NCBI GenBank assembly: GCA_027920525.1
Contig: CP115858.1
Coordinates: 3,100,001 to 3,164,000, forward strand
Direction of reading: 5' to 3'
DNA: 64,000 nucleotides
Source: Chryseobacterium daecheongense
GTDB lineage: Bacteria > Bacteroidota > Bacteroidia > Flavobacteriales > Weeksellaceae
The position numbers and the translations under genes are program-made. The notes under the pieces were generated by a model, which was not told the origin of the DNA, ran no database searches, and saw only the letters and a list, made by a program, of their open reading frames with translations. Below, piece after piece: positions 19,618-33,877 of this stretch (position 1 is its first letter; every line of letters starts with the position of its first letter).

Positions 19618-20225
19618 ATGCTGATCAAAATTTATGGAAGCGCAATTCATGGAGTTGCGGCACAAACGATTACTATTGAAGTTAATATTGATACAGGTGG
19701 CGTTGGCTATCATTTAGTTGGTCTCCCCGACAATGCGATCAAAGAAAGCAGCTATAGGATTTCTGCAGCATTAAGAAATGTCGGTTTCAAGATTCCCGGT
19801 AAAAAAATTACAATTAATATGGCTCCCGCAGATCTTCGGAAAGAAGGTTCCGCATATGACTTAAGTATTGCGATAGGGATTTTAGCTGCATCAGACCAAA
19901 TTCTTGCTGAAAATATCCACAACTATATCATTATGGGAGAACTTTCATTGGATGGAAGCTTACAACCTATTAAAGGAATTTTACCCATTGCAATCCAGGC
20001 GAAGGAGGAGGGTTTTAAGGGGATTATTTTACCCATGCAAAATACCAGAGAAGCTGCTGTGGTGGAAGGAATTGATGTTTATGGAGTCAGTAATATCAAA
20101 GAGGTGATTGATTTTTTTAATGAAGGAATACCCATTGAAAAGGTTGTTTTGGATATAAAAAAAGAATTCCAGGAAAAAGTAAATCAGTTTCCTTTTGATT
20201 TTTCAGAAGTAAAAGGGCAGGAAAC
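19618..20225 (+). pseudogene. comM: comM (yifB) 5' fragment, interrupted by transposon
   Basis: ComM is a hexameric AAA+ helicase that drives branch migration when transforming DNA integrates. This piece starts at the normal ATG (MLIKIYGSAIHGVAAQTI) and covers the N-terminal Lon-protease-like fold, ending in FSEVKGQET; the reading frame then runs seven codons into the transposon end and stops at 20247. In intact ComM the next segment is the Walker A loop, which is missing from both fragments. The other half is at 33200-33877. Confidence 0.93.
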
Positions 20226-20270
20226 TGTCAATTCCAAAAGAAGATGATAATCCACAATTCGAAATGATAA
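20226..20270 (+). repeat. Transposon left end with two TnsB-type sites
   Basis: Terminal repeat TGTCAATTCC...GATGATAA (20226-20250). The cores GATGATAA at 20243-20250 and AATGATAA at 20263-20270 are 20 bp apart and point inward. They match three inward cores in the right end. Confidence 0.75.
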
Positions 20271-20450
20271 AATAACAAATAAATTCGAAATTTCACCTTT
20301 AAAAAAGGTTTCGTATTTTGAGTAATTAATTTTTTCATATTTTAAATCAATTTAATAAATTGATTATATCTTTGATTTTCAGTGATTTATATTTCATGTT
20401 GGATAGGATAAAATTAAAAACTGAATAAAACTATGATAAAATTTTATATT

Positions 20451-20482
20451 TTTTGGTGGTTTTGTTTTTTTTCGTACATTTG
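20451..20482 (+). promoter_or_regulatory. Promoter for the first cargo gene
   Basis: TTTTG (20451-20455), 19 nt, TACATTTG (20475-20482): a near-consensus Bacteroidota promoter about 100 nt before the gene at 20580. The interval 20271-20450 is otherwise transposon end DNA without a gene. Confidence 0.65.
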
Positions 20483-20579
20483 TAATGTCTAAATAGACAG
20501 CAAAAAAAAATCTTCTTGTTGCAGCAAGAAGATGGAAGATGGTCATTGAAGGGTGAGATACTTTATAATTTGTAAAATA

Positions 20580-21233
20580 ATGGATTTTAACACACAAAGT
20601 ATTTCCCCAAATGGGAGAACAAATATACACAATAAAAGTGTATTTGACAAGGAAATCACTAATAAAAAATACAGTGATTTTGTGAAATATGCCTATACAG
20701 GCATTATAGAAGGTTATGCAAAGAGTCAGAAATATATAATTGATAACCCTTTTGAATTTTTTAATAAAAGACATCAGGCATCAACTATAAATTCGATGGT
20801 ATTTGCAAATTTTTATTCTAAACTTAGTTCAGATTTCAAGGCTTTTGATATGACCTTAAAAATAAGCACTTATGGCATGACTTATTTTTTATTGGATAAT
20901 AAAGCCCTATTCTGTTTTAAAGCTATGGATAAAAATGGGAAAATTAAAAATATCTCAACTGAGAGATTTGAGAACACAACAGCAGGAAATGATGTCTCAT
21001 TAAAGAAGTCCGTCAGAAAAGAGTTGCAAAGAAGAGGGATTGAGCATCAACCTCCAATTTTTTATTTTGTATATATGCCTAATGAAAATGGAGGAATTAC
21101 TGTAAAATTAGTTAGATTTGAAAATGATGAATTAGCTTATGAGTTAAATTTATCTGAGTATTTTATATCTGGAGAAAGCCTAGGTATAAAGTTAAAAAAT
21201 CAAGCCCAAGACGGAGATTCTAAAGTTGGGTAA
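20580..21233 (+). CDS. Unknown cargo protein paired with XRE-ImmA/IrrE gene
   Basis: 217 aa from the ATG; a GTG nine codons upstream is possible but less likely. The N-terminal quarter is polar; residues about 45-100 are helical with many Tyr and Lys (VKYAYTGIIEGYAKSQKYII), and the C-terminal half looks alpha/beta (IFYFVYMPNENGGITVKLV). No signal peptide, membrane helix or catalytic motif that I recognise. It has its own strong promoter and precedes the XRE-ImmA gene by 58 bp, so the pair is probably one unit in which this protein could be the effector or the protease substrate. That role is inference. Confidence 0.7.
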   Translation: MDFNTQSISPNGRTNIHNKSVFDKEITNKKYSDFVKYAYTGIIEGYAKSQKYIIDNPFEFFNKRHQASTINSMVFANFYSKLSSDFKAFDMTLKISTYGMTYFLLDNKALFCFKAMDKNGKIKNISTERFENTTAGNDVSLKKSVRKELQRRGIEHQPPIFYFVYMPNENGGITVKLVRFENDELAYELNLSEYFISGESLGIKLKNQAQDGDSKVG

Positions 21234-21291
21234 GTATTAATATTTCTCATCCTTCAATCATCATCTATTTATTAACAATGAGAAAAACAAT

Positions 21292-22359
21292 ATGAATGCA
21301 ACAATCTTTAATAATGCAACTTTAAGATTGGCAAGAGATTATTTTGGATTAAGCCAGACAGCTTTTGGTAAAAAGATTAATACAAAACAATCTATTATTA
21401 GCAACATTGAAAATGGAGAAAGGCCTTTAGAGTTAGAGCAGATTCAAAATCTTAGTGATCAGTTTACTGCTAAATTCTTTAAAAGTGAGATAAACTTGCC
21501 GTCTCAAAAATTGTTTTACAGAAAATTAGCATCAACAAGTAAAAGCCTTGTAAGTGCATTTGAAGCGAGACTTACTTTAATATCTATGACCGTAGCTAAC
21601 CTTTTAGATATTATTGATATTCCAGAAAACAAAATTCCTATAATAGATCTTGAAGATCATAATTTCAACTTTGAATACTTGGCTAGTGAAATTAGGTTAA
21701 AATTTGGAGTTTTACGAGGTCCAATTGATGACATTGTAAGCTTACTGGAAAAGAATGGAATTATTATACATTTTTTTGATTTTGATTTTATCAGTGGTGA
21801 TAATAGAAATTTTGATGGAGTTAGCACTTATGTAAATGGAGTTCCACTAATTTTAATTAATAATAAAATTCCAAATTCAAGAAAAGTATTTACGATAGCT
21901 CATGAGCTTGCGCATCTAATTTTTCATTTTGACTTTATCATTCCTGAAAGCAGAAATAAAGAAAAAGAAGCTGATGCCTTTGCTGCTGCTTTTTTGGCAC
22001 CTAAATCAGAGGTACAATCAGTTTTCAAAAGATTAAATAAAGAAAAGCTTTTCAGTCTAAAAAAAGTATGGAAAATGTCAGCTGCAGCTATTTTATATAG
22101 AACTAAGGATATTGGAAATATTACACAAGATTGGTATAACAAATGTATATTTTGGTTATCTCCTTATAGAAAACTAGAACCATTCGAATTTGAAATTAGT
22201 CAACCTACACTTTTAAGAAAAGTTATTAAGTTGGCTCAAGATGAAACTGATTTTTCCTTCTTAAAGCAATTGGGCTTTAAAGAAAATGTTGTTGAAGAAT
22301 TATTTTCAACAATTATACCTAAAAAAACTATTTTACGGAAACTATCCATCGAACTATAA
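21292..22359 (+). CDS. XRE-family regulator with ImmA/IrrE metallopeptidase domain
   Basis: 355 aa. An N-terminal helix-turn-helix of XRE type (about 10-60: LARDYFGLSQTAFGKKINTK, SIISNIENG) is joined to an ImmA/IrrE zinc-peptidase domain with HELAH at 204-208 and a downstream acidic helix (NKEKEADAFAAAFLAP). In ImmA, IrrE and related proteins such a protease cleaves a repressor after a stress or phage signal. Here DNA binding and protease are one chain, as in many defence and toxin-antitoxin-linked regulators. Last gene of the two-gene unit, followed by a hairpin. Confidence 0.88.
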   Translation: MNATIFNNATLRLARDYFGLSQTAFGKKINTKQSIISNIENGERPLELEQIQNLSDQFTAKFFKSEINLPSQKLFYRKLASTSKSLVSAFEARLTLISMTVANLLDIIDIPENKIPIIDLEDHNFNFEYLASEIRLKFGVLRGPIDDIVSLLEKNGIIIHFFDFDFISGDNRNFDGVSTYVNGVPLILINNKIPNSRKVFTIAHELAHLIFHFDFIIPESRNKEKEADAFAAAFLAPKSEVQSVFKRLNKEKLFSLKKVWKMSAAAILYRTKDIGNITQDWYNKCIFWLSPYRKLEPFEFEISQPTLLRKVIKLAQDETDFSFLKQLGFKENVVEELFSTIIPKKTILRKLSIEL

Positions 22360-22373
22360 CATGAAAAAAGAAT

Positions 22374-22400
22374 ATAAGCCACTCAAAGAGTGGCTTATTT
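22374..22400. terminator. Bidirectional terminator between convergent cargo genes
   Basis: ATAAGCCACTC / GAGTGGCTTAT stem with an AAA loop. It separates the XRE-ImmA gene from the convergent recombinase gene and can serve both. Confidence 0.8.
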
Positions 22401-22415
22401 ATATATTAATACTAT

Positions 22416-22991
22416 TTAGCTAGCAGAATTATCCCTTTTGTCAATTCTATAAAAAGTAGCCTTGCTGATACCAGCCTGTTTACAAGCTTTATCAATAGGA
22501 ATATTTTTGTTATCATATAAATGCTTGACAAATTGATATTTTTCTAGGCTTTTTTGACTAGATCCTGTAGGCCTTCCTAAAAGTTTTTTCCTTTTTCGGG
22601 CTCCCTCTAACCCAGTCTTTGTTCTTTCACTAATTAAATTTCTTTCAAATTCAGCTACAGCCCCAAAAATCTGAATAATAAATCTTCCGTTTGCTGATGT
22701 GGTATCAAAAGCAGGTTCTGTTATACTTTTAAAAAGAACACCCTTTTGATTGAACTTTTCAATAAGTTCAATCATATTTTTAAGAGATCGAAAAATCCTA
22801 TCTGTTTTATAAACTATTATGGTATCATCCTTTCTTAAATAAGAGAGCATTTCATTTAATCCTGATCTATCTTCACGAACTCCACTTGCTATGTCTGTGA
22901 AAATTTTTTCACAACCATTTTCTTTTAAGATTTCTACTTGAGTAGAAATGTTCTGTTCTGAAGTTGAAACTCTGGCGTAACCTACAGTCAT
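22416..22991 (-). CDS. Small serine recombinase (resolvase/invertase type)
   Basis: 191 aa. Catalytic domain at 1-140 with nucleophile Ser9 in GYARVSTSEQN, the arginine-bearing VYKTDRIFRSLKNM, and AEFERNLISERTKTGL leading into helix E. A C-terminal helix-turn-helix (IPIDKACKQAGISKATFYRI) binds the recombination site. The length is that of Tn3-type resolvases and Hin/Gin invertases. In replicative transposons such as Tn5053 (TniR) this enzyme resolves cointegrates. A TnsA-active Tn7 would not need it, so its presence here bears on transposition mode. A res site was not identified. Confidence 0.92.
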   Translation of the reverse strand: MTVGYARVSTSEQNISTQVEILKENGCEKIFTDIASGVREDRSGLNEMLSYLRKDDTIIVYKTDRIFRSLKNMIELIEKFNQKGVLFKSITEPAFDTTSANGRFIIQIFGAVAEFERNLISERTKTGLEGARKRKKLLGRPTGSSQKSLEKYQFVKHLYDNKNIPIDKACKQAGISKATFYRIDKRDNSAS

Positions 22992-23284
22992 AATTTTTAG
23001 TTTAAAAAAATGATCCTTTTAAGAGACAAAAAGAAATATAGAATTTTACAAATTCAGGTAGTATTATTTTCCGTCTCATTTAATTGTTTAGTAAAAATAG
23101 GTTTTTTAAAACTAATTTTAAATCCAAGTATAGTATTGCAAATCATTTTTGAAATGATTAGTTTTAGCATAAGCCTAAATACGAGGAAACAAAAATTAAG
23201 GTATGTTTCTTAATAAAAGTCAAACCTATATTGAAGATGTAAAACTCTATATAAATATTTAATCGAAAATACTAATTAAACTAT
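22992..23284. other. Intergenic region with inverted repeat; possible recombinase site
   Basis: About 290 bases between the divergent recombinase and HEPN genes. It holds AATCATTT-TTG-AAATGATT (23141-23159), a perfect 8-bp inverted repeat. In serine-resolvase systems res sites commonly lie upstream of the recombinase gene, but I cannot identify a three-site res array. An ORF of 67 codons at 23010-23213 is composed of AT-rich, Ile/Leu/Phe-rich sequence and is not called. Confidence 0.35.
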
Positions 23285-24730
23285 ATGGACTCTTTAGATA
23301 ATTTATTTGAATACATTCAGAAACTACAGAAAGATGTAGATGAAAGCTTTGAAGATGTAGATTTCTATAATTCTTTTTCCTTTATAGAAATGTTTGAGAA
23401 AGAACGTGAAATAAATTTTTCATGTTATGAACTAGATATTTTTGAACAAGTAGCTATCATAAAAAAGAATCCAGACAAGAATCGTTTTGAAATAGAAATT
23501 AAAAATATTTTTTTTGATGTTAAAAAATTATACTCTCTGGACCTTATTATAGATAAAAAAAATTATCATATAGAGGGAGTTCAATTTTGTACTAGGCCTG
23601 CAAAATTTATTAAAAATGAAGAAAATAATGTTTTTGAAGGTCAAATAATCTTTTATTCATATATAACAAGCCTATGCTCAGGCGATTTTTCATTAAATTG
23701 TTTTAACAGATGTGTCATTGAAACTCCTAAATTCATTCTTTCGGATTATCTTCAGTCTAATAGTTTTAGATTTGAAGGAAGCTTAAGAGCTACAGGGAAT
23801 TTTCGTTTTACTTTTAATAAACAGGAGTTTAGAATTATAAATTTTAATAATGGAAAAAGTGATTATATAATAATAGATTCATTAGACATGATAAATCATA
23901 ATGAATTTCAATTAATTGTTAATTCAATTCTGATTTGTGTTGGTTTTATTACCACGAACTATTATCAAAATGAATGTTATTATTTTCAATCAGCACAAGA
24001 AAATTTCCTTAATCCAGATGTATATTATAAAACATTGAGTAAATCTATTCTGCCAGAAGCTAATTATAATCCAATTTATAGAAATCCTTATGAAGATGAA
24101 TTAATAGTTTTCAATAGAGAAAATTTCGAAAGTTTAATAGGTCATGTTTATAGAAATGACGAATTTAATTATCTGATTTTATTATTTATAGAAGCTAATA
24201 ATGCTACATTAACATTACAGCCTGCAGGATATTCAGTTGCACTTGAAAAGCTTACAAATATTATTGCATTGGAAAACAATAATTTACAGCCCATTGAAGA
24301 TAAGAAAAAAGCAAGAATTTTTATTAAAAAATTGAATGCGGTTTTAGAGGACTGTAAAAATTTTATTGATGAAAATGGTTCACAAGATGCTTTCCAAATT
24401 TTACAAAAAAACATTCAGAATATTAATAAACCAACAAATAAAGAGAAACTATTAAAACCATTTGAAATATATAATGTTTGTTTAACAAAAGAAGATAAAA
24501 AAGCTATTGGTGCTAGGAATGATTTTTTACATGGAAGAACCTTGCGGGGTGAAGATAATAAAATTGCACAATTAGAAATATTCGAAACTTCTTTAAGGCT
24601 TAATAAAGTGTTAAATATGCTTATATTAAAATATATAGGGTATAAGGGAAATATGATTAATTATGTTAAATATTATGAAAAGATATTAAGAAAGAATATT
24701 GAGGAAGATTTATTTGTAAATCTGAATTGA
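23285..24730 (+). CDS. ApeA-like HEPN protein, predicted anti-phage RNase
   Basis: 481 aa, soluble. The N-terminal about 280 residues are rich in beta-strands (IIFYSYITSLCSGDFSLNCF; FRFEGSLRATGNFRFTFNKQ). The C-terminal about 200 are helical and carry ARNDFLHGRTLRG, where Arg411 and His416 form the RNxxxH signature of HEPN ribonucleases. This order (long beta-rich N-terminal domain, then Apea-like HEPN) is that of ApeA, a single-gene abortive-infection protein that cuts RNA after sensing phage. The link to ApeA is from architecture and motif only; the trigger is unknown. Confidence 0.75.
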   Translation: MDSLDNLFEYIQKLQKDVDESFEDVDFYNSFSFIEMFEKEREINFSCYELDIFEQVAIIKKNPDKNRFEIEIKNIFFDVKKLYSLDLIIDKKNYHIEGVQFCTRPAKFIKNEENNVFEGQIIFYSYITSLCSGDFSLNCFNRCVIETPKFILSDYLQSNSFRFEGSLRATGNFRFTFNKQEFRIINFNNGKSDYIIIDSLDMINHNEFQLIVNSILICVGFITTNYYQNECYYFQSAQENFLNPDVYYKTLSKSILPEANYNPIYRNPYEDELIVFNRENFESLIGHVYRNDEFNYLILLFIEANNATLTLQPAGYSVALEKLTNIIALENNNLQPIEDKKKARIFIKKLNAVLEDCKNFIDENGSQDAFQILQKNIQNINKPTNKEKLLKPFEIYNVCLTKEDKKAIGARNDFLHGRTLRGEDNKIAQLEIFETSLRLNKVLNMLILKYIGYKGNMINYVKYYEKILRKNIEEDLFVNLN

Positions 24731-24905
24731 TACTAGTATCTAAAGTTGTATTATAATACTTTTATCAAGTATTTTCATATATTATTGAAATGTTACCATA
24801 ATCTCAAATAAAATACTACAAAAAATAACTTTTTCGGTATAGTGGTCAATATTAATTTTAATTAATATCTTTAATTATTTATCAATAAAATATTATTAAA
24901 TAACC

Positions 24906-25754
24906 ATGGATATAAACAAAATTAAAATGTTGACATTAAGAGCATTAATGTCAGAAGAGTTTCTTATGCATTCCTTAGTTCTAAAAGGAGGGAATGCTTT
25001 ACAACTTGCATATGAAATAACAAACAGAGGATCTATAGATATTGATTTTTCAGTAGAAAGAGAATTTACAGAAGAAGAAATAAAGAAAATGCCTATAGTA
25101 TTAGATATGATACTTGATAGAGTATTTCGTAAAGAAAACTTAAAAGCGTTCGATATTAAATTTGAATTAAAGCCAAAGAACAATGTTATTCCTGAATGGA
25201 AAGGTTATATCATATTATTTAAGCTTATTGAGCTAGATAAATTTATTGAATTTGGGGATGATATCGATAGCATTAGGAGAAATGCTATTTCTGTTCATGA
25301 TAATAGTTCCACACAATATTCGGTGGATATTAGTGCTTATGAATATGTAGAAACAGCAACAACAAAAGAGGTTGAAGGTATTCTTTTAAGAGTTTATACT
25401 TTGGAAATGATTCTCCTGGAAAAGATTAGAGCATTGTGTCAAACTATGCCTGAATATAAAGAAATTGTACCTAGTGCCAAAGAAAAACAAAGAGCTAGAG
25501 ATGTATATGATATATATACTATATATAGTCAAGCAGAATTAAATTTAGAAGAAGATATTCTGAGGGAAATTTTCAAAGCGAAGCAAGTACCTTTATCATT
25601 AATTAATAAATTGGAAAGTTTAAGAGAACATAACAGAGATGACTGGAATAGAGTTATACAGACTGTTTCTGCGGATGAAGAATTAAAAGAGTATGATTAT
25701 TATTTTGACGAGTTATTAAAAATAGCCAGTCAATTTAAAGACCTTTCGGAATAA
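24906..25754 (+). CDS. AbiEii-type nucleotidyltransferase toxin
   Basis: 282 aa. DUF1814/AbiEii family: nucleotide-binding loop VLKGGNALQLAYE near residue 22 followed by GSIDIDFSVE with the metal-binding acidic pair, and the C-terminal RALCQTMPEY...RARDVYDIY helix with conserved Lys, Arg and Asp. Family toxins such as MenT and AbiEii transfer nucleotides and stop growth during phage infection. The gene is convergent with its apparent antitoxin and overlaps it by 20 bp, unlike the usual AbiEi-AbiEii operon. The 175 bases before it have no clear promoter. Confidence 0.9.
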   Translation: MDINKIKMLTLRALMSEEFLMHSLVLKGGNALQLAYEITNRGSIDIDFSVEREFTEEEIKKMPIVLDMILDRVFRKENLKAFDIKFELKPKNNVIPEWKGYIILFKLIELDKFIEFGDDIDSIRRNAISVHDNSSTQYSVDISAYEYVETATTKEVEGILLRVYTLEMILLEKIRALCQTMPEYKEIVPSAKEKQRARDVYDIYTIYSQAELNLEEDILREIFKAKQVPLSLINKLESLREHNRDDWNRVIQTVSADEELKEYDYYFDELLKIASQFKDLSE

Positions 25755-26589
25755 ATAGCTTCCACTTGCTATTATAATCTTTGTGCAGGATATTATATGT
25801 TAAATAAAAGTCAATGTCTGAATCCATATTAAGAAATGGTTCATAGTCTTTTTCATTATATCCTGCTTTTTCCAAATAAAAGCCGATGACTTTATGATAT
25901 GGATAAGTAAAATCCATTTCTACATAATAATCAAATAATTTCTGTGTATCTAATTTATCTTTAGCTTCTTCAAAAGATTGGAGAACTTGAGTAATCCCAC
26001 CAGCATAGAAAGGTCTTACAGAAACATCGATTAATGTTCTTTCGATATTTGATACTAAATATTTGTTTCTAAAAGGTTCTATTCCTAAGAGATTATGGTT
26101 TTGACCATTAATGAAATTAATTGTAAACCCTTTATATTTTCTTTTATCCTGAGTTATTCTGGGAGTCTTACTAAAGGCGATGTCAACATTTTCTTGAATT
26201 AAGAATGTGTCATTTTGATGACGTAACCCTTTTCTCTCCCAAGTTAGATATACCTGCTTAGGAAGTTGTATTGTTAAGTTATGTATCGCTAATGCAGAGT
26301 AGTGGCTAAAAAAAGCAGATCTAGATCGAGTTGATGCAATATCATATTGATCAATTTTACTATCTTTTAGATAATAGAATTCAGAATTTGATTGACCTTG
26401 AAGTCTATTTTGAACTATATAATGTTCAAGAAGAAATTCTTTAATTTTTTTTCTTGAAGCACTTTTAATTCCTTTAATTTGTTTAATTGATGAAACTAAT
26501 CTTTCAAATTCTTCTGTTGTAAGCACTTTATAATCATTTTCTTCTAAAGCATCTTCAATTTCAACAGTATATTTTTCGAATTTAGCCAT
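25735..26589 (-). CDS. AbiEi-type antitoxin/transcriptional regulator
   Basis: 284 aa from MAKFEKYTVEIE. The frame opens 11 codons earlier (to 26622), but those codons consist of the palindromic operator, so the internal ATG is chosen. N-terminal residues about 20-75 resemble a winged helix; then SRSAFFSHYSALAIHNLTIQ and FINGQNHNLLGIEPFRNKYL...SNIERTLIDV are typical of the AbiEi C-terminal antitoxin domain. AbiEi proteins repress their own promoter through inverted repeats, matching the operator modules just upstream. Tail overlaps abiEii by 20 bp. Confidence 0.85.
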   Translation of the reverse strand: MAKFEKYTVEIEDALEENDYKVLTTEEFERLVSSIKQIKGIKSASRKKIKEFLLEHYIVQNRLQGQSNSEFYYLKDSKIDQYDIASTRSRSAFFSHYSALAIHNLTIQLPKQVYLTWERKGLRHQNDTFLIQENVDIAFSKTPRITQDKRKYKGFTINFINGQNHNLLGIEPFRNKYLVSNIERTLIDVSVRPFYAGGITQVLQSFEEAKDKLDTQKLFDYYVEMDFTYPYHKVIGFYLEKAGYNEKDYEPFLNMDSDIDFYLTYNILHKDYNSKWKLFIPKGL

Positions 26590-26601
26590 ATATTTAATTA
26601 T

Positions 26602-26664
26602 ATAATAATTGCATATATGCAATTATTATGGGGCAAAGTTAGTTATTTTTTTTGACAAAGTCAA
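26602..26664 (-). promoter_or_regulatory. Promoter-operator module A (drives abiEi)
   Basis: Minus strand: TTG (26662-26664), 20 nt, TAACTTTG (26634-26641), then after 4 nt a perfect 28-bp palindrome (26602-26629) centred on GCATATATGC, at the expected transcription start. The abiEi ATG is 12 nt further. Confidence 0.85.
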
Positions 26665-26677
26665 ATTTATTTCTGTT

Positions 26678-26747
26678 TAAGTAATTAATTGCATATATGC
26701 AATTAATTACTTACTGTGAAGGTACGAATTTTTATTTAAAAAGTCAA
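26678..26747 (-). promoter_or_regulatory. Promoter-operator module B (divergent copy)
   Basis: A longer 36-bp perfect palindrome (26678-26713) with the same GCATATATGC centre. Its promoter is degenerate: TTG (26745-26747), 20 nt, TACCTTCA (26717-26724). Confidence 0.7.
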
Positions 26748-26798
26748 TAATGATATGAATAGCAATTAGGAAAAGAGAGAAAATTAGTTTTTGTAATA

Positions 26799-26861
26799 AT
26801 AATAATTGCATATATGCAATTATTATGAAGCAAAGTTACATTTTTTTTTCGACAAAGTCAA
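26799..26861 (-). promoter_or_regulatory. Promoter-operator module C
   Basis: 28-bp palindrome (26799-26826), 4-nt gap, TAACTTTG (26831-26838), 20 nt, TTG (26859-26861); the same layout as module A. Confidence 0.8.
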
Positions 26862-26924
26862 TGATTATGAGTGAAAAACAAAAAAAAAGACATTATTTAA
26901 CCTTTAAAAATTAATTTCTCTATT

Positions 26925-26987
26925 ATACTAATTGCATATATGCAATTAGTATGATGCAAAGTTAAAGTTTTTTTTTGACAAAGTCAA
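26925..26987 (-). promoter_or_regulatory. Promoter-operator module D
   Basis: 28-bp palindrome (26925-26952), 4-nt gap, TAACTTTG (26957-26964), 20 nt, TTG (26985-26987). One arm base differs from A and C but the opposite arm changes with it, so the symmetry is kept. Confidence 0.8.
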
Positions 26988-27025
26988 TAGTATTATATGA
27001 TAATATTTTTATTAAAGACAATTTT

Positions 27026-27056
27026 TTTGAATGGCTCAATTTTTTTGATATTTTTA
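27026..27056 (+). promoter_or_regulatory. Possible promoter for the TnsE-like gene
   Basis: TTTG (27026-27029), 19 nt, TATTTTTA (27049-27056), differing from consensus at the last base, 24 nt before an ATG at 27081. Confidence 0.4.
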
Positions 27057-27080
27057 TCATTACCTATTGTAATTCACAAG

Positions 27081-28805
27081 ATGTTACCAAAAATTGCACA
27101 AAGACTTCCTAAAAAGCTCAGGCTTCCTGATTGGGTATATGAAGAAGCCGATAAAGTAGACTTTAAAAATAAATTTTGGTTTATTTCATGGCTTGGCAGA
27201 AGCTATTATATTAATGATGTTATTTATAGAGAGGTTTATATTACGTTATGTAATAATACTTATTTTAAGTTTCAAAAAAATTTGAAAACATTCTGTATCC
27301 CTTTTAGAGAAGAATATACAATTAGGCATAGACAAGGTAATTATTATGAATACTTAGGAGATTTTCTACAATCAGCTCATAATCATGAAAAGATTAATAT
27401 TGTAAAAGATATTCTTATTAATCGAATACATAATGGAACAATACTAAATATTGAGAATACACTAGGAAACGGAAAAACATTTTACCCATTGCTTAATTCC
27501 CGGCTTTACGGAGATGTACCATGTTATCAGGTTGATATAGAGAATTTGAAATTTATAATACCGTTTAACGTAATACAGGCTTATTTTTACTCGTTATCCT
27601 CTTTAACTCTTTATTATTTAATATATGGAGTTTTTATTCCGGGTATAGTAAAACCATATGAATTTGATGATTATGCAGTTGTTGCTTATAGGTCATCACT
27701 CATCAATAAACCAGAGGCAAGAATATTAGGCAAATTTTACTTCTTGAACAAAGGTGATATTAAAAGGCTGTATAATATAAGACGAAGCTTTTTAAAGGAA
27801 TTGTTTGATAAACAGAGAAATAATAAGGATTTAAAGTCTTACATACTTTACTCATTGCCCTTTGAAAAAGATGCTATAATAAAAATGGATCTTCATTATC
27901 ATCCCGTTGATAAGGATGGTGTAATTAATATGGTTTATGCTATTGACAATGTATCATTACCTTCCGGTGAAGCATTGTTTGAGGTTGAGAATTTTATCTT
28001 AGATGATCAAGATGCAGCTTTGAAAATTGAAGATGAGAATGCAAATGAAATAATTCAAGGAACAAGCGTGGGATATAATCATAATAATAATGGAGAACTT
28101 GTAGCAGATACACTTTATACAAATAATGAAGCTATTCTGGATGTTATTGTTAATGATGAAGGACCTAAGTTTTTGGAATCTCCAAATATTACAGACGCTA
28201 TACCAACAGTTATTAAAAATAATACAAGCTTTGAAAATAGTTTTATTAAACATATCAGAGATTATGATGAACTAACATCTAATCATAGTAATGATAGTGA
28301 CACAGGTCTTGTAAATTTGATTTCTGGTATTTCTGAGAATTCTGATTACATGCGTATTATCTTATCAGCTTTTGATCTTTTAGAAAAAGATAAAGATTTT
28401 GCTTGTGATTATATTTATTTGAAAAGACAAGGTAATAGCGTTTTTTCTTATGATCCATTAAATTTTACAAAAAATGGTTCCATTGTCTTTTTTAGAATTG
28501 AATATCAATATCAACAATATTGTATTATAGCAAGTAATAACGAATCAAAGAGGATAGGAATTATAAAATATATTGGGGAAGGTGGTTTTGACTCAGAACA
28601 TGATGAAGGGTTAAAAAATGGAATAATAAAAGTAAGAAGAGACCATAAATCTAATTGGTCATTACTAAAAACATCAAAATTAAAACTCTACAATTTTATG
28701 GTTGTAGATTCGCTTAATAAAATTAAAAGAGAAACTTTTGAAGATAGTGTGGAAAGCCTTTATAATCGAATAGCTAAAGGGATTAAAGATCTAACAGGGA
28801 AATAA
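27081..28805 (+). CDS. Divergent TnsE-like transposition protein (tentative)
   Basis: 574 aa from the ATG at 27081; the frame opens at 26997, but the extra 28 codons are an AT-rich pseudo-membrane segment overlapping a promoter. Against Tn7 TnsE recalled from memory the layout agrees: an N-terminal WFISWLGRSY...YREVYITL segment like the TnsE opening, a KFIIPFNVIQAYFYSLSSL helix like HIPQLELARSLFL, an acidic low-complexity middle, and a C-terminal AFDLLEKDKDFACDYIYL block like AAFDELL...FACRVLF. TnsE directs Tn7 to replicating or conjugating DNA. Similarity is weak and hand-made. The gene converges on tniQ with a 23-bp overlap instead of following it. Confidence 0.5.
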   Translation: MLPKIAQRLPKKLRLPDWVYEEADKVDFKNKFWFISWLGRSYYINDVIYREVYITLCNNTYFKFQKNLKTFCIPFREEYTIRHRQGNYYEYLGDFLQSAHNHEKINIVKDILINRIHNGTILNIENTLGNGKTFYPLLNSRLYGDVPCYQVDIENLKFIIPFNVIQAYFYSLSSLTLYYLIYGVFIPGIVKPYEFDDYAVVAYRSSLINKPEARILGKFYFLNKGDIKRLYNIRRSFLKELFDKQRNNKDLKSYILYSLPFEKDAIIKMDLHYHPVDKDGVINMVYAIDNVSLPSGEALFEVENFILDDQDAALKIEDENANEIIQGTSVGYNHNNNGELVADTLYTNNEAILDVIVNDEGPKFLESPNITDAIPTVIKNNTSFENSFIKHIRDYDELTSNHSNDSDTGLVNLISGISENSDYMRIILSAFDLLEKDKDFACDYIYLKRQGNSVFSYDPLNFTKNGSIVFFRIEYQYQQYCIIASNNESKRIGIIKYIGEGGFDSEHDEGLKNGIIKVRRDHKSNWSLLKTSKLKLYNFMVVDSLNKIKRETFEDSVESLYNRIAKGIKDLTGK

Positions 28806-29769
28806 GCCAATAGTCTATATCTTTATTGTAAATATTAAGATATGATTTAGTCAAGTTAAGATCCTTTGGTAAATTTTTAGCTATAGTAAAATCTTTTATG
28901 AATTTATAAATAATAGGAAGAGTTTCCTTCCTTTCTTGTAAGGTCCAAAAGCCAGTTTCCTCTTTTATCGGGAGGGAATTAAAATTATATGTATTTGCTA
29001 AAAGAATATTTAATTTCTGATTAAACTTATTTTTTCTGGTACCTCTAGCTGTTCTACATAATAATATAAGCCCATTAATGAATGAAAATGAATAGTTTGT
29101 ATAATAATTAAACCCCTTATCCAAAGTCGAATTTATAAAACTTTGATATTCCATTTCTAAAGGTGTAGCCTTTTGAGGGGCAAAATTAGATAAATCCATT
29201 TTACAATACCAACATAGTGAAAATATAAAGGAAAGGTCCGGAATAGATTGATTTCCGCTACTATAAATAAGATGGTAAGAGATTGGCTTTTGACAATTAG
29301 GACATCTGTCAATTAATGATGATTGACATTTGGTACAAACGATGGTGGAAAATAATCGCCATTCTTTTTTATAATAAGGATTTGTAGATAAACATTTGGG
29401 GCAACACATAGTACCAAATCTTTTTCGCTTTCTATTGTTTAATCCTAAACTTAAAATATGGCTTTTTCTATTTGAATAATTATTAAAATAAACATCATTA
29501 TATGAAGTGAGAAATAATCTATCAATTTCTTTGCTAGATAGTGGAGTATGATTTAATAAAAAATTGACAACATAGTCCGGTTTAAGGTAGTCGATATCTC
29601 TTCCAAAAATTGGTGCATTATGACCAAAATTATGCTTTATAAAGGTTAATGGTTTTACGCAATGATTAATGGCTAATCGACAATACCATGAGCTAAATAG
29701 TTCGTCAGTTTCAGGATTAATATATGCAGGAAATATATTCTTTTTGAATTTTTTAATGTAAACCATCAA
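28783..29769 (-). CDS. tniQ: TniQ/TnsD-family target selector
   Basis: 328 aa. N-terminal TniQ segment (INPETDELFSSWYCRLAI...FIKHNFGH) and a zinc-ribbon cluster of CxxC pairs at about 125-200: CCPKC, CTKC, CPNC and CWYC. TniQ/TnsD proteins bind the attachment site and recruit TnsC; with the insertion in comM, this is the likely reader of the comM site, which is inference. It is short compared with Tn7 TnsD (about 508 aa), so the C-terminal DNA-binding part is reduced. Overlaps the tnsC stop by four bases. Confidence 0.9.
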   Translation of the reverse strand: MMVYIKKFKKNIFPAYINPETDELFSSWYCRLAINHCVKPLTFIKHNFGHNAPIFGRDIDYLKPDYVVNFLLNHTPLSSKEIDRLFLTSYNDVYFNNYSNRKSHILSLGLNNRKRKRFGTMCCPKCLSTNPYYKKEWRLFSTIVCTKCQSSLIDRCPNCQKPISYHLIYSSGNQSIPDLSFIFSLCWYCKMDLSNFAPQKATPLEMEYQSFINSTLDKGFNYYTNYSFSFINGLILLCRTARGTRKNKFNQKLNILLANTYNFNSLPIKEETGFWTLQERKETLPIIYKFIKDFTIAKNLPKDLNLTKSYLNIYNKDIDYWLISLLDL

Positions 29770-30650
29770 ACAAAATATCTTTTTTTTCTGTCTTGAGGTG
29801 AAATATAATCAATATTCAGTATTATCTCTTTAGTTATTTTTTCTTCTCCACTTTTAATAGCTTCAATACTACAAAGTTCAAGTATTCTTGCAACTTCTCC
29901 AATCAGACCATCACTCATTACAAGAAGTTTCATTGTCATCGAATTTTCTGTGAGCATTGATTCCTTTTTTAATGGAATTAGAGCTTCAAAACTTGCTAAG
30001 AGACGCTTAAATTCCATATCATTAGACCACTTGGGTAAAACTCTTGGTTCAAAGCGATTTGCTAATTGATGATCACTTTGTATGACATTGAAAGCAAGCA
30101 TTGTTCCTGCACATATAATGGGTATCTGTAAGTCATTTGATAAATGCTTAATAACATTTAAAAATTTTCTTTGTTTTGTTGGTGTACCTGCTAATACATG
30201 ATGAATCTCATCTATTATCAATGCCTTTGTTTGCAATTCTGTTAACATCTTTTTTACACGTAAATATCTTAAATCCAGTTTTTCAGATGTCTTATATGGT
30301 GCAAAAATATGTTCTAAAATTGCATTGTAAAATCTTCTTTCATCGGGTTCTGGTGGTGCTTGAACCATGATTACTGGGTTTATTACGTTCCCAGTTTTTT
30401 CATCATAAGATGCCTCATATCTTTGGTTAAATTTATTAAGAATGGCAGTTTTTCCGTTATTAGATTCTCCTACAAGCAAAATGTTGGTCATTCTAGTGCT
30501 TTTAGGATAAATCAATAGTTCATCCATTCTATTAATAATTTTAGTTGCTTGGCTGTATCCAATCCATTTTGGAAATCTACAAGACGAGATCCTTTCGTGT
30601 TCGGTTGCCCGTTCAACAAATTCTCTAGTATTTTTTGTTAAATGTTTCAT
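29766..30650 (-). CDS. tnsC: TniB/TnsC AAA+ ATPase, transposition regulator
   Basis: 294 aa. Walker A GESNNGKT at 61-68, Walker B ALIIDEIHHVL with Asp-Glu at 147-148, sensor 1 in LQIPIICAGT, and an arginine-rich LANRFEPRVLPKW segment of the TniB family. It forms ATP-dependent filaments or rings on target DNA, linking TniQ to the TnsA-TnsB transposase and giving target immunity. Shorter than Tn7 TnsC (555 aa) and nearer TniB of Tn5053 in size. Overlaps tnsB by 26 bp and tniQ by four. Confidence 0.93.
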   Translation of the reverse strand: MKHLTKNTREFVERATEHERISSCRFPKWIGYSQATKIINRMDELLIYPKSTRMTNILLVGESNNGKTAILNKFNQRYEASYDEKTGNVINPVIMVQAPPEPDERRFYNAILEHIFAPYKTSEKLDLRYLRVKKMLTELQTKALIIDEIHHVLAGTPTKQRKFLNVIKHLSNDLQIPIICAGTMLAFNVIQSDHQLANRFEPRVLPKWSNDMEFKRLLASFEALIPLKKESMLTENSMTMKLLVMSDGLIGEVARILELCSIEAIKSGEEKITKEIILNIDYISPQDRKKRYFV

Positions 30651-32454
30651 CGTCTAAATCTTCAAAGGGTTTAATTATCTCATTATCTTCAGGTATAAAA
30701 TTATTCAAGTCAATTTTTGAGGTATTGTTTTCATTTCTATAGTCAAAGGATTTAGGCTCTCTTCTTTGCCTTTTTGTTTTCAAAACGGACTTATTTTCAA
30801 TATTTGTCAATTCTTTGAATGCTTCAAAAATATTTTCTTCAGTAATTTCCTTATTTCTTTCTTTAACTTTTTTAAGAGAATCTCTATACTCCCATAAAGA
30901 AATAGCTGGATAAGTAGCATTTCTGAATGGAATATCAAAATATTCTTCTGTTACTGGATCTAGAAAATAAATTAAGCTTATATCTCTAGGATCTCTCTTA
31001 AAAATATAACCTTTATTGTTATCTTTTTTATGGATGTATGGTCTTAAAACATCAGCATAATAATATAGATGGTCAATAACTACTCCGTATTCCTGAATAG
31101 AGCGAACAACATAAGGCATAAAATCTAATCTTGTTCTTCTAATATCATTTATTCTAGGAAGGATACCCCGACCGGGTATATTTTCATTACCCATTATCCC
31201 ATCTTCATATTTTTTTAATGGAGAAATTCCAAGTGATGAGTGAGTTCTTGTATGATAGATTTTTGTAATATAGGTTATTAGCCAACGTTCAAGCTCTGAT
31301 AAAGTTAGAGATGAATTTTCTTCACTTTTATAATTTTTCCTTTCTTGTTCATTTGAAAATGTAGTTCCGGGAAGGTTATGTATTTCTGAAGCAAATGTAC
31401 CAAGCAACCGTTCTATATGTCCTCCATAATGTGGTGTTGCAATTGGTCTGTATTTTAAAGATATTCCATAGTTATCACATGCATCCCTTAACATTTTGCC
31501 ATGGAACTCTTTAGCGTTATCTAAATGTAGAGAATCCATTACTCCCCAACACGGCCAATTTGCAGAAACTCCGATTCTCTCTAGCCATAGTTCTTTAGGA
31601 AGAATTGAATTCGAAATACACATTCCAGTACCAATTGCTCCTGGTGGATCATAAGATAGGTAGAGGCCAATAACCATTCTGCTATATATATCTATAGCAA
31701 CTGTAATCCAAGGTCTTTTATAGGCTTTCCTCTCTAATTCATCAACTAATATTATATCTAATAGAGTATGGTCTATTTGTACGATTGATAGAGGAAAGGT
31801 TGCTTCCTCATAATTTGATTTTATAGGTTCATATTTATAACGTGCCTCCTTTATCCCTAATCTTTTTTTTATTTTTTCTTCATCTGATATTCCCTTAATC
31901 CTGCTTCTAATAGTATTGTCATGAGGAGAAGGAATTCCTAAATCATGACATGCTATTTTTACTTCTCTAATGACTTTCGTTATTGATCTCCTATTCTGAT
32001 TTAAATAAACTGAATTTATTTTGTCAGAAATAATTTCTTCCTGTTTATTAGTAAGCCTACTTTTGCCTTGACCTCCAGTTTTTCTCTTTCCAGCAAGAGA
32101 AGCTACAGTTTGGCCATTGTCATAAAATTTTAGCCACCTGTATATTGTAGGAACACTAACATTATTTTCAAAAGCAATACGATTTATCAATGAAAGATCA
32201 CCTCGATTGGAAAGTATGGGCTTTATAATATTAAAGCGGGCTTTAGCCTTTTCCCAATCTTTATCAGTAAGTATTTCCATGGGAATACAGCTTGAATCTG
32301 CGAATGGAGTTATGTCTTTTAAAGATACAGTATGGATTATATTAGAATGAATTTCAGAAATAGAAACTTTAGATGTACTTATTATTTTGATAATAATACA
32401 TTCTTTGTTATCATAAATGACCTTTTCACCCTTTGAAATATATGTTCTATTCAT
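30625..32454 (-). CDS. tnsB: TnsB/TniA DDE transposase
   Basis: 609 aa. N-terminal helix-turn-helix segments (RIAFENNVSVPTIYRWLKFY; SRLTNKQEEIISDKI) for binding the RTGATAA-type end sites, then an integrase-core fold with the triad Asp228 (VQIDHTLLD), Asp312 (LHLDNAKEF) and Glu348 (YGGHIERLLG), Asp-to-Glu spacing 36. A Mu-transposase-like C-terminal beta-barrel (about 445-520) and a charged tail for TnsC contact follow. All three acids are present, so 3'-end cleavage and strand transfer should be intact. Overlaps tnsA by eight bases. Confidence 0.95.
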   Translation of the reverse strand: MNRTYISKGEKVIYDNKECIIIKIISTSKVSISEIHSNIIHTVSLKDITPFADSSCIPMEILTDKDWEKAKARFNIIKPILSNRGDLSLINRIAFENNVSVPTIYRWLKFYDNGQTVASLAGKRKTGGQGKSRLTNKQEEIISDKINSVYLNQNRRSITKVIREVKIACHDLGIPSPHDNTIRSRIKGISDEEKIKKRLGIKEARYKYEPIKSNYEEATFPLSIVQIDHTLLDIILVDELERKAYKRPWITVAIDIYSRMVIGLYLSYDPPGAIGTGMCISNSILPKELWLERIGVSANWPCWGVMDSLHLDNAKEFHGKMLRDACDNYGISLKYRPIATPHYGGHIERLLGTFASEIHNLPGTTFSNEQERKNYKSEENSSLTLSELERWLITYITKIYHTRTHSSLGISPLKKYEDGIMGNENIPGRGILPRINDIRRTRLDFMPYVVRSIQEYGVVIDHLYYYADVLRPYIHKKDNNKGYIFKRDPRDISLIYFLDPVTEEYFDIPFRNATYPAISLWEYRDSLKKVKERNKEITEENIFEAFKELTNIENKSVLKTKRQRREPKSFDYRNENNTSKIDLNNFIPEDNEIIKPFEDLDDETFNKKY

Positions 32455-33088
32455 GTTTATCCCAAATTATAGTTTTGAGCGATAGCTTTTCCTCTTTATT
32501 AAAATTAAGTAAATTACAGTTAATTAAGTACCAAGTAACATAGAGAATTTCTGCTTTTCTTTCAAAAGTTTTTCCAACTTCTTCTAATAATTGACTGACA
32601 GTCAGTTTTTTGAATTTATCGACTATTGTAAATATTGTCTGAATATCCATATCATTAATAAACCTTCCTTTGTGGTAGTAATTACTTAAAAATTTATAAT
32701 TAAAAAGAAGATTTGAGTCTATGTCTCTATAATGTAGCATGCTAAATTTGATCGTATTTTTTCGAAGTGTTTTTTCAATTTCTAAAAGCTCTGAAGCTTC
32801 TTTAGTGCCAACATTTAATATGATTAATTCTTCTTTATCATTTTTATATTTTACATAATAATCAGGAACAAATTCTTTAATTATATTTTTAAAGAAATAG
32901 TTAACCTTGAAGGGCTGTTCACAATAACTTATGATATTATCATCTTTTTCTAAAATGTGCATGTAATCTTTTACTATTTGATGAGTTACTTTCTTTTCAG
33001 AGGTTTTCTGAATAATGAGCGAGTCTGTATTTATAAGATATTTTGTTAAATCAATCTCATAAGTCTTTTTTGAACTTATTATCACCAT
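32447..33088 (-). CDS. tnsA: TnsA-family protein with degenerate endonuclease site
   Basis: 213 aa. Residues about 30-125 fit the TnsA nuclease fold: YCEQPFKVNYF, then FVPDYYVKY, then LIILNVGTK, and residues 140-213 are a C-terminal winged-helix-like region (KLTVSQLLEEVGKTFERKAE) that contacts TnsC in Tn7. Aligned by hand to Tn7 TnsA from memory, Asp114 is kept (Asp76), but Glu63 falls on Ile38, Gln130 on Asn92 and Lys132 on Gly94; Lys96 is two residues off. It would then be unable to cut the 5' ends. Identity as TnsA rests on fold pattern plus position before tnsB. Its ATG is beside an end-binding site. Confidence 0.82.
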   Translation of the reverse strand: MVIISSKKTYEIDLTKYLINTDSLIIQKTSEKKVTHQIVKDYMHILEKDDNIISYCEQPFKVNYFFKNIIKEFVPDYYVKYKNDKEELIILNVGTKEASELLEIEKTLRKNTIKFSMLHYRDIDSNLLFNYKFLSNYYHKGRFINDMDIQTIFTIVDKFKKLTVSQLLEEVGKTFERKAEILYVTWYLINCNLLNFNKEEKLSLKTIIWDKHE

Positions 33089-33199
33089 GTATTATAATTT
33101 TAATGGCGTAGATGATTTATTAAGATCAGAATTATCACTTTCTTTTGTAAAGAATGAGGATATTTGTTCAAATTTTATCATCTACTTTACAAATTTACA
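33079..33199 (-). repeat. Transposon right end with three TnsB-type sites
   Basis: Read on the minus strand: terminal TGTAAATTTG...GATGATAA (33199-33175), then AGTGATAA (core at 33138-33132) and GGTGATAA (33086-33079). All point inward like the left-end sites. The innermost overlaps the tnsA start codon. Confidence 0.72.
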
Positions 33200-33877
33200 G
33201 GGGGAAGCTATCCACAGCCAGGAGAGATATCCCTCGCACATAATGGTGTTTTATTCCTTGATGAAATGCCTGAGTTCAAAAGAACAGTGCTTGAAGTGAT
33301 GCGACAGCCCTTAGAAGATCGTGAGGTTACCATTTCAAGGGCAAAGTTTACAGTAAACTATCCCTCGAGCTTTATGCTTATTGCATCGATGAATCCAAGT
33401 CCTAGTGGATATTTCCCTGATGATCCTAATAATACTTCATCCCTTGCGGAAATGCAGCGTTATATGAATAAATTATCAGGCCCTCTTTTAGATCGTATTG
33501 ATATCCACATAGAAATCCAAAAAGTTGAATTTGAGCAATTAACTGAAAAGAGAAAGGGTGAAAAAAGTGAAACGATCAGAACAAGGGTACTGAAAGCCAG
33601 AGACATCCAACAGGCCAGATATCAAGATTTAGAAATTAGTTACAATGCGCAAATGGGCTCGCGACAAATTGAGCAATTTTGTGCTTTAGATGAGGTTTCA
33701 TTTGCTCTGATAAAACAAGCGATGGACAAGCTGGGGTTGTCCGCAAGAGCGTATGACAGAATTCTGAAGGTTGCACGGACAATTGCAGATCTTGACGAAT
33801 CTGAGAATATTCTCTCACATCATATTTCTGAAGCCATACAATATAGAAGTTTGGATCGGGAATTTTGGAATGTTTGA
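33200..33877 (+). pseudogene. comM: comM (yifB) 3' fragment
   Basis: Resumes in the GGGSYPQPGEISLAH segment of the AAA+ domain, directly after the transposon ACA end, and continues to the natural C-terminus (SEAIQYRSLDREFWNV). Walker B (GVLFLDEMPEF), the sensor segment (IASMNPSPSGYF) and the C-terminal helical domain remain, but Walker A is lost. A spurious ORF reads into it from 33164 inside the element. It cannot make a working ComM. Confidence 0.93.

Follow-up and report, generated by a model that had tools for sequence, protein, structure and literature searches.

The 64,000-bp window analysed here (Chryseobacterium daecheongense, contig CP115858.1, positions 3,100,001 to 3,164,000) contains a comM-homing Tn7-like transposon that encodes TnsA, TnsB, TnsC, TniQ and a TnsE-like protein, carries defence genes as cargo and belongs to a family present in many Chryseobacterium species. 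The active site of its TnsA has, on the alignments presented here, almost certainly been lost, and the protein is very probably nuclease-dead. The lineage sharing this loss is predicted to transpose by a copy-in pathway. The limits of the element were set by comparison with the conspecific genome G222, in which comM (yifB) is uninterrupted and comprises 511 codons. This placed the element at 20226-33199 (12,974 bp), between comM nt 608 and nt 859; the extent given by an earlier, sequence-only reading (22416-33088) was too short and covered only the right part.

The TnsA active site

The rightmost gene encodes a TnsA homologue (PF08722, E 1.4e-5) that scored 26.0 bits in one scan, just under the family cut-off of 26.5 bits, and 26.9 bits in another, just over it. 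As a reference we used a 273-aa record annotated as Tn7 TnsA (plasmid pG527, locus L132), in which residues 63, 114, 130 and 132 are E, D, Q and K. The corresponding columns hold V39, D76, I90 and N92 in the window protein, leaving it without the residue set of an active TnsA (E63, D114, Q/E130, K132). A profile match to PseTnsA(B) points to the same columns, V39, D76 and N92. The structure-named triad of PseTnsA is Glu34/Asp71/Lys87 in the accessible text of PMC13228271; numbering of the matched chain runs 2 above the published one (counted by hand), and the spacings of 37 and 16 residues are those of V39, D76 and N92. The sequence-only reading had also considered Asp76 kept and the rest of the site lost, which holds, but its Ile38, Asn92 (as Q130) and Gly94 were out of register by one or two residues and should be V39, I90 and N92.

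Alignment of the TnsA proteins of relatives, as that reading had proposed, revealed a loss broader than the window. Eighteen of 35 rows, some of them near-copies, form one clade that includes the window protein and has lost E35, E39, E90 and K92 (window numbering) while keeping D76; all five residues are present in each of the 17 rows outside the clade, and the site is intact in a Methylobacter relative too. Within the clade the first active-site column varies (V, A or T), and about seven residues after the K position are missing. Hereafter, proteins and elements with and without the site are termed intact and dead. The TnsA of G298, which is split over two frames, was excluded from the residue counts and from the substitution ratios below.

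In the TnsA tree the 18 dead rows lie on one side of a single branch (support 100/100). In the TnsB tree, for which the outgroup was the distant, long-branched Tn7, the TnsB proteins of five dead cores group together (100/100) and are nested among intact ones as sister to the G269 group (98/99). By the nested position and the single TnsA branch, the loss is derived, and one origin is enough to explain it.

Dead TnsA is still under purifying selection. The ratio of nonsynonymous to synonymous substitution rates (dN/dS) was 0.09 to 0.39 in all six dead pairs and 0.09 to 0.15 in ten pairs from the intact sister group, with synonymous sites near saturation in several pairs, including those that gave the lowest ratios. 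The N-terminal to C-terminal divergence ratio was 1.0 to 1.4 in dead pairs (one at 2.5) and 0.6 to 1.0 in intact pairs (one at 1.6), an identical pair having been set aside; this difference is slight, and a faster divergence of the nuclease half of dead TnsA is not relied on here. The most divergent dead proteins are 53% identical to that of the window, and the named sources are Chryseobacterium and Elizabethkingia; the family-genome scans covered 296 and 316 of 320 genomes with few candidates scored per genome, so that elements may be missed.

Movement of the dead lineage

Two dead elements, in G296 and G298, are flanked at the comM site by exact 5-bp duplications (GGTGG and GGGGA). The window and the C. 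sediminis genome G257 are 96.8% identical over 9,061 bp, of which about 0.7 kb is the comM 3' part, versus 77% for their comM 5' parts. By these comparisons, the dead lineage has moved and is recently mobile. The window genome, a single contig that is 100% complete, contains no second PF08722 match at E 0.001. In the portion of PMC8188705 available to us, a TnsA active-site mutant (D90A) gave more than 95% cointegrate reads. Given the movement of the dead lineage, the lack of a second PF08722 match and the behaviour of this mutant, copy-in (copy-and-paste) transposition of the dead lineage is likely by analogy. The same mode had been read from the window before, and this much of the claim is retained: a nuclease-dead TnsA that is the sole PF08722 match in its genome is expected to give cointegrates. 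The connection then drawn to the recombinase is weaker than proposed.

The serine recombinase and exchange of left modules

The small serine recombinase (RES) of the element has Ser9 intact, as previously noted, and the residue is found in 14 of 14 aligned sequences. The gene is under strong constraint (dN/dS 0.02 to 0.07 in those eight of ten window pairs for which a ratio is defined). Our survey of comM elements comprised 22 (5 dead and 17 intact), and all five dead elements hold a full-length copy. Window-type recombinases share 86-94% identity when cores from separate clades are compared; those of G258, G215 and G260 are of more distant types (36-47%).

Of the 45 element pairs compared, 12 lose their homology around the recombinase 112-120 bp upstream of its start; a dyad lies at this point, and its clearest copies have the sequence AAAACGNNCGTTTT. 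The sharpest breakpoint separates G298 and G282: the 3,113 bp ending at +112 are 99.7% identical, and the 3 kb beyond give no match. G257, with a dead core, and G269, with an intact one, have left modules that are 98.7% identical over 3,671 bp, compared with 68% for the tns core. These alignments demonstrate chimeric elements, in which one left module is joined to dead and to intact cores. In the window, the 481-aa gene is situated between two candidate crossover sites, and homology with G257 resumes at the second, near 24822. The simplest reading of these breakpoints, which we consider highly likely, is that left modules are exchanged site-specifically at res between related elements; our confidence is slightly lowered by the fact that no more than 12 of the 45 comparisons have their breakpoint there. 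The recombinase is probably the enzyme of this exchange. Left modules with a recombinase and without matches to the window tns proteins were found in G282, G261, G260 and the window genome, within the stretches read.

The last of these is a second L end outside comM (G000:C1:4441499-4441523, minus strand; L072/L082), whose recombinase is 89% identical. Its first 1.2 kb are 99% identical to the left module of G257. Type I restriction-modification-like genes were recognized there by eye, and no match to a window tns protein was found in the 18.5 kb read.

Insertions in comM and flanking deletions

The R joint lies at comM nt 853-862 in 21 of the 22 comM elements and at about nt 1315 in G215. Both joints were found in 21 elements; G263 was left out, as its comM 5' part was not found and its left end is beyond the stretch read, and its lack of a recombinase holds for the 37.9 kb read. 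Exact 5-bp duplications flank eight of the 21 insertions, and the ordinary insertion of this family is thus Tn7-like. Six of the eight belong to one clade, yet their duplication sequences differ.

The other 13 insertions have a comM deletion of 99-670 bp and no target duplication. The missing comM adjoins the L tip. In the window this is exact to the base, and elsewhere it holds as closely as a flank identity of 67-89% can show; in G215, comM has been lost on both sides of the element. The window copy is without a target duplication because the flanking comM is missing. These deletions are most likely later transposase events, either an attack of the L end on the flank or a second insertion upstream followed by recombination. 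The window and G222 are 94-98% identical in comM, and most simply both the insertion and the 250-bp deletion in the window are younger than the split from G222.

The deletions remove a motif located about 30-50 bp left of the site; of six L joints outside comM, three have this motif before them as well. With an attachment profile trained on nine comM sequences, the non-comM joints of G261 (1e-4), G260 (0.011) and G282 (0.035) scored high, and those of G198, G317 and G000b did not. With G260 and G261 sharing one locus, this is suggestive of an attachment motif at non-comM joints and is not proof. The joints of these two genomes (L066 and L067), at a homologous locus in two species, have the comM-like motif AGRTCTCCAYATCATAC in the 60 bp left of the L tip, with comM-like spacing.

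Three readings of the deletions were set aside. They are not a signature of dead TnsA, as three of the five dead elements have them and so do ten of the 16 intact ones. A requirement for the recombinase is unsupported, since G255, G218 and G283 are deleted without a recombinase match; deletions occur in 10/12 elements with a recombinase and 3/9 without (p = 0.03), a test that ignores relatedness, all six of the recombinase-less undeleted elements being one clade. The L joint as a second homing event is disfavoured, none of the ten deleted L joints tested (of 13) passing 5% for the attachment motif (the nearest, G215, reached 0.055).

Proposed mechanism and alternatives

We propose that TnsA is retained as a pseudo-nuclease, presumably to hold TnsB and TnsC together, and that the 5' strands remain uncut. 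TnsB alone would nick and join the 3' ends, yielding a Shapiro intermediate and from it a cointegrate, as the published TnsA active-site mutant suggests. Either homologous recombination or the serine recombinase that the element encodes, acting at a res immediately upstream of its own gene, would then resolve the cointegrate. The same enzyme would probably also carry out crossovers between the res of separate elements and so swap their left modules, each made up of an L end, cargo and a recombinase. As a joint explanation, the sequence from pseudo-nuclease TnsA through cointegrate and either route of resolution to module exchange between dead and intact cores is the best available, and on balance we lean towards it; the part that assigns cointegrate resolution to the recombinase is favoured only slightly. 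A bolder version is doubtful: TnsA would have been selected as a purely structural pseudo-nuclease in obligate copy-in movement, the L end would attack its flank and erase the comM attachment motif (13/21), locking the element in and closing the site to rivals, and dead and intact cores would trade L-end cargo modules through the recombinase.

Several observations weigh against the proposed mechanism. A recombinase is also present in seven of the 17 intact comM elements (four with a full-length window-type copy, G269 with a truncated window-type copy and a 40% relative, and G258 and G215 with the 47% type); the comparison of 5/5 with 7/17 gives a Fisher p of 0.04 and ignores relatedness. TnsA loss therefore does not explain the recombinase. 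Since a dead and an intact core can also share one left module, the tie between the two that the sequence-only reading had made is weakened. The families that score best for the recombinase are those of invertases and excision recombinases rather than a named transposon resolvase, and its best plasmid relatives (L128, L129 and L130; 80-86%) are on Flavobacteriia plasmids. Three elements, those of the window, G296 and G261, have a poorly conserved dyad. Thirty-three of the 45 pairs break away from it: two run through shared right-hand DNA, many end early (low similarity or the truncated G000b) and others break at 126-214 bp. As for TnsA, dN/dS in dead proteins is somewhat above that of the intact sister group, which may reflect a partial relaxation of constraint, and the near-saturated pairs bear on the lowest ratios. 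An AlphaFold model built with 13 close sequences had a predicted local distance difference test score (pLDDT) of 48, too poor for a fold test; Foldseek with this model placed Tn7 TnsA (1t0f) second at E 0.12, which we do not count as evidence. Finally, no cointegrates or resolution were observed.

The recombinase data would also fit a plasmid-type resolvase housed in a swappable left module, shuffling modules and perhaps resolving plasmid or element dimers, with no role dedicated to the cointegrates of the dead lineage, these being left to RecA. This is a possible account, if not the one we favour, and it gains from the recombinases of intact elements, the high similarity (86-94%) of window-type enzymes on cores of different clades, the one left module on dead and intact cores, the plasmid relatives and the recombinase-bearing L modules without tns matches. 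parA lies within about 1.5 kb of the recombinase in two of three plasmids inspected, with none listed nearby in the third, and the recombinase may have originated in a plasmid maintenance system. On the other hand, every one of the five dead elements has kept a full-length, strongly constrained recombinase, and an enzyme that resolves dimers would resolve the cointegrate too, given a res in the element.

The remaining alternatives concern TnsA and the element as a whole. If TnsA cut through other residues, or a host nuclease cut the 5' ends, simple insertions would result. The retention of D76 in 18/18 rows and the purifying selection on TnsA are in keeping with this, and rare simple insertions arise even without TnsA, for which the authors, in the part of PMC8188705 at hand, invoke host nicking or recombination. 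We nevertheless regard it as unlikely, since the equivalents of Glu63, Gln130 and Lys132 are all lost, the first of them varying, and inspection of 17 positions gave no new conserved charged set in the dead clade (E87 is common to intact rows, and K96 is in 5 of 18). Borrowing of TnsA in trans from co-resident intact relatives is conceivable in that such relatives in the same genus use the same comM site, some with related L ends, but the sole PF08722 match of the complete window genome makes it very improbable. A decaying tnsA in elements that no longer function is hardly credible: G298, a dead element with an exact 5-bp duplication, has both TnsA and TniQ split over two frames (possibly by sequencing error), whereas dN/dS is well under 1, similarity between elements of different species is far above that of their hosts' comM genes, and TnsB, TnsC and TniQ are matched nearly full length in the window, G257, G253 and G296.

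Core proteins and organization of the element

TnsB retains its Asp-Asp-Glu (DDE) triad, as the sequence-only reading had stated, and Asp228, Asp312 and Glu348 are identical in 22 of 22 aligned family TnsB proteins. The genes for the DDE transposase TnsB, the TnsC/TniB ATPase and TniQ are on the same strand and overlap, as in a Tn7-like operon broadly defined. Repeat-like sites are found at both ends of the window element, and at the family level the 5-bp target duplications agree with a broad definition of Tn7-like ends. The C terminus of the 602-aa protein has the fold of the TnsE C-terminal domain by fold comparison, on which the designation TnsE-like depends, profile and Pfam searches having given no convincing match. 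On a Methylobacter plasmid (L133, the first of the plasmid matches listed) we noted a TnsA-TnsB-TniB set with intact TnsA residues and a TnsB that is 41% identical.

Features of the window element and its joints, in order from the left end
Feature	Position	Strand	Remarks
comM/yifB 5' part, nt 1-608	19618..20225	+	ChlI domain; G222 comparison
Left end (L), tip TGTC	20226..20276	.	two repeat-like TnsB-site candidates at +6, +26
Cargo, 226 aa	20553..21233	+	no family match in Pfam, PADLOC, PHROGs, NCBIfam
Cargo, helix-turn-helix and ImmA/IrrE peptidase, RmrA-like	21292..22359	+	PADLOC
Small serine recombinase (RES)	22416..22991	-	Ser9 intact
Candidate res region upstream of RES	22992..23115	.	inverted arms 22997-23010 / 23102-23115; sequence comparison
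Candidate crossover inside candidate res region	near 23090-23115	.	sequence comparison
Cargo, 481 aa	23285..24730	+	no family match; cassette-like, flanked by two crossover-site candidates
Second crossover-site candidate	24811..24830	.	homology with G257, G298 resumes
AbiEii-like protein, abortive-infection pair	24906..25754	+
AbiEi-like antitoxin/regulator	25735..26622	-
TnsE-like core protein (602 aa), convergent to tniQ	26997..28805	+	relatives mostly start at Met 27081
TniQ, 328 aa	28783..29769	-
TnsC/TniB AAA+ ATPase	29766..30650	-	PF05621, 231 bits
TnsB transposase	30625..32454	-	DDE = D228, D312, E348
TnsA, active site almost certainly lost	32447..33088	-	V39, D76, I90, N92
Right end (R), outer tip TGTAAATTTG on minus strand	33089..33199	.	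repeat-like TnsB-site candidates 6, 49 bp from tip
comM 3' part, from nt 859	33200..33877	+	comM nt 609-858 (250 bp) missing between joints

Between the AbiEi gene and the TnsE-like gene (26620-27000), the palindrome TTGCATATATGCAA occurs three times with similar flanks and is also present in G257 and G298; these copies are perhaps AbiEi operators. Elsewhere in the window, G+C is 0.456 at 40001-42000, against about 0.35 in the surroundings, and a tRNA search of the window found none.

Comparison with known systems

The element resembles Tn7 in having TnsABC, a TnsE-like protein and a 5-bp target duplication. It differs in the loss of TnsA E63, Q130 and K132 and in its TnsB, which is 21.8% identical to Tn7 TnsB (76 bits). 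Tn7 targets glmS, and the element described here comM. Of the two named types compared, the window TnsB is nearer to TniA of the tniA-TniB-TniR type (L131; 36.8% over 421 residues, 320 bits). A TniB-type ATPase, a serine recombinase and predicted replicative movement are further likenesses to Tn5053/Tn402 (TniA, TniB, TniQ, TniR). Unlike those elements, it has TnsA and a TnsE-like protein, which places it outside that group, and its recombinase is in a swappable left module rather than beside the transposition genes, as in L131. Tn5053/Tn402 elements are generally known to target res sites (also in the available excerpt of PMC7765201), whereas the window element and 21 relatives are in comM. 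The earlier proposal of an intermediate between Tn7 and Tn5053 is not borne out by the TnsB tree, in which the loss appears derived inside a nuclease-intact, comM-homing family.

Closer in habit is the comM-targeting Tn6022 family of Acinetobacter, described in the accessible part of PMC10293859 as having TnsA, TnsB, TnsC, a short TniQ, comM insertion with target-site duplication and a tnsE gene of opposite orientation. That gene lies close to the left end of Tn6022, while here the TnsE-like gene is directly beside tniQ; no TnsF was seen beside tniQ, the neighbour being convergent and TnsE-like, and no search with a TnsF sequence was made. Tn6022 further differs from the present element in that here TnsA is without its active site and a serine recombinase module is present. 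In the same source, AjTn6022 with its own TnsA gave 39.1% cointegrates, so cointegrates alone would not set the dead lineage apart, and the intact sister group is the control. The left module that G257 (dead) and G269 (intact) have in common provides a matched natural comparison, and the small losses of comM beside the L tip are a footprint of end chemistry that can be tested.

In the literature searched, where subscription papers are thinly covered, we found no natural TnsA-dead lineage, Chryseobacterium comM element or comM-side deletion. The dead lineage is the equivalent in nature of the TnsA active-site mutant made in the laboratory, long kept, diversified and recently mobile. It opens the question of TnsA roles besides cutting and of how Tn7-like elements switch from cut-and-paste to copy-in. 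Benler et al. (2021), as far as the text of PMC8649781 at hand goes, tied replicative movement to the absence of tnsA together with a resolvase and discounted serine resolvases in tnsA-bearing elements. The tnsA-lacking branches with tnsR in that text resemble the dead lineage, with its probable loss of 5' cutting, putative resolvase and predicted replicative pathway. In those branches the tnsA gene is absent, whereas the dead lineage still encodes a TnsA, one lacking the active site, so that a survey of presence and absence would score it as cut-and-paste; the presence of tnsA thus does not predict the transposition pathway.

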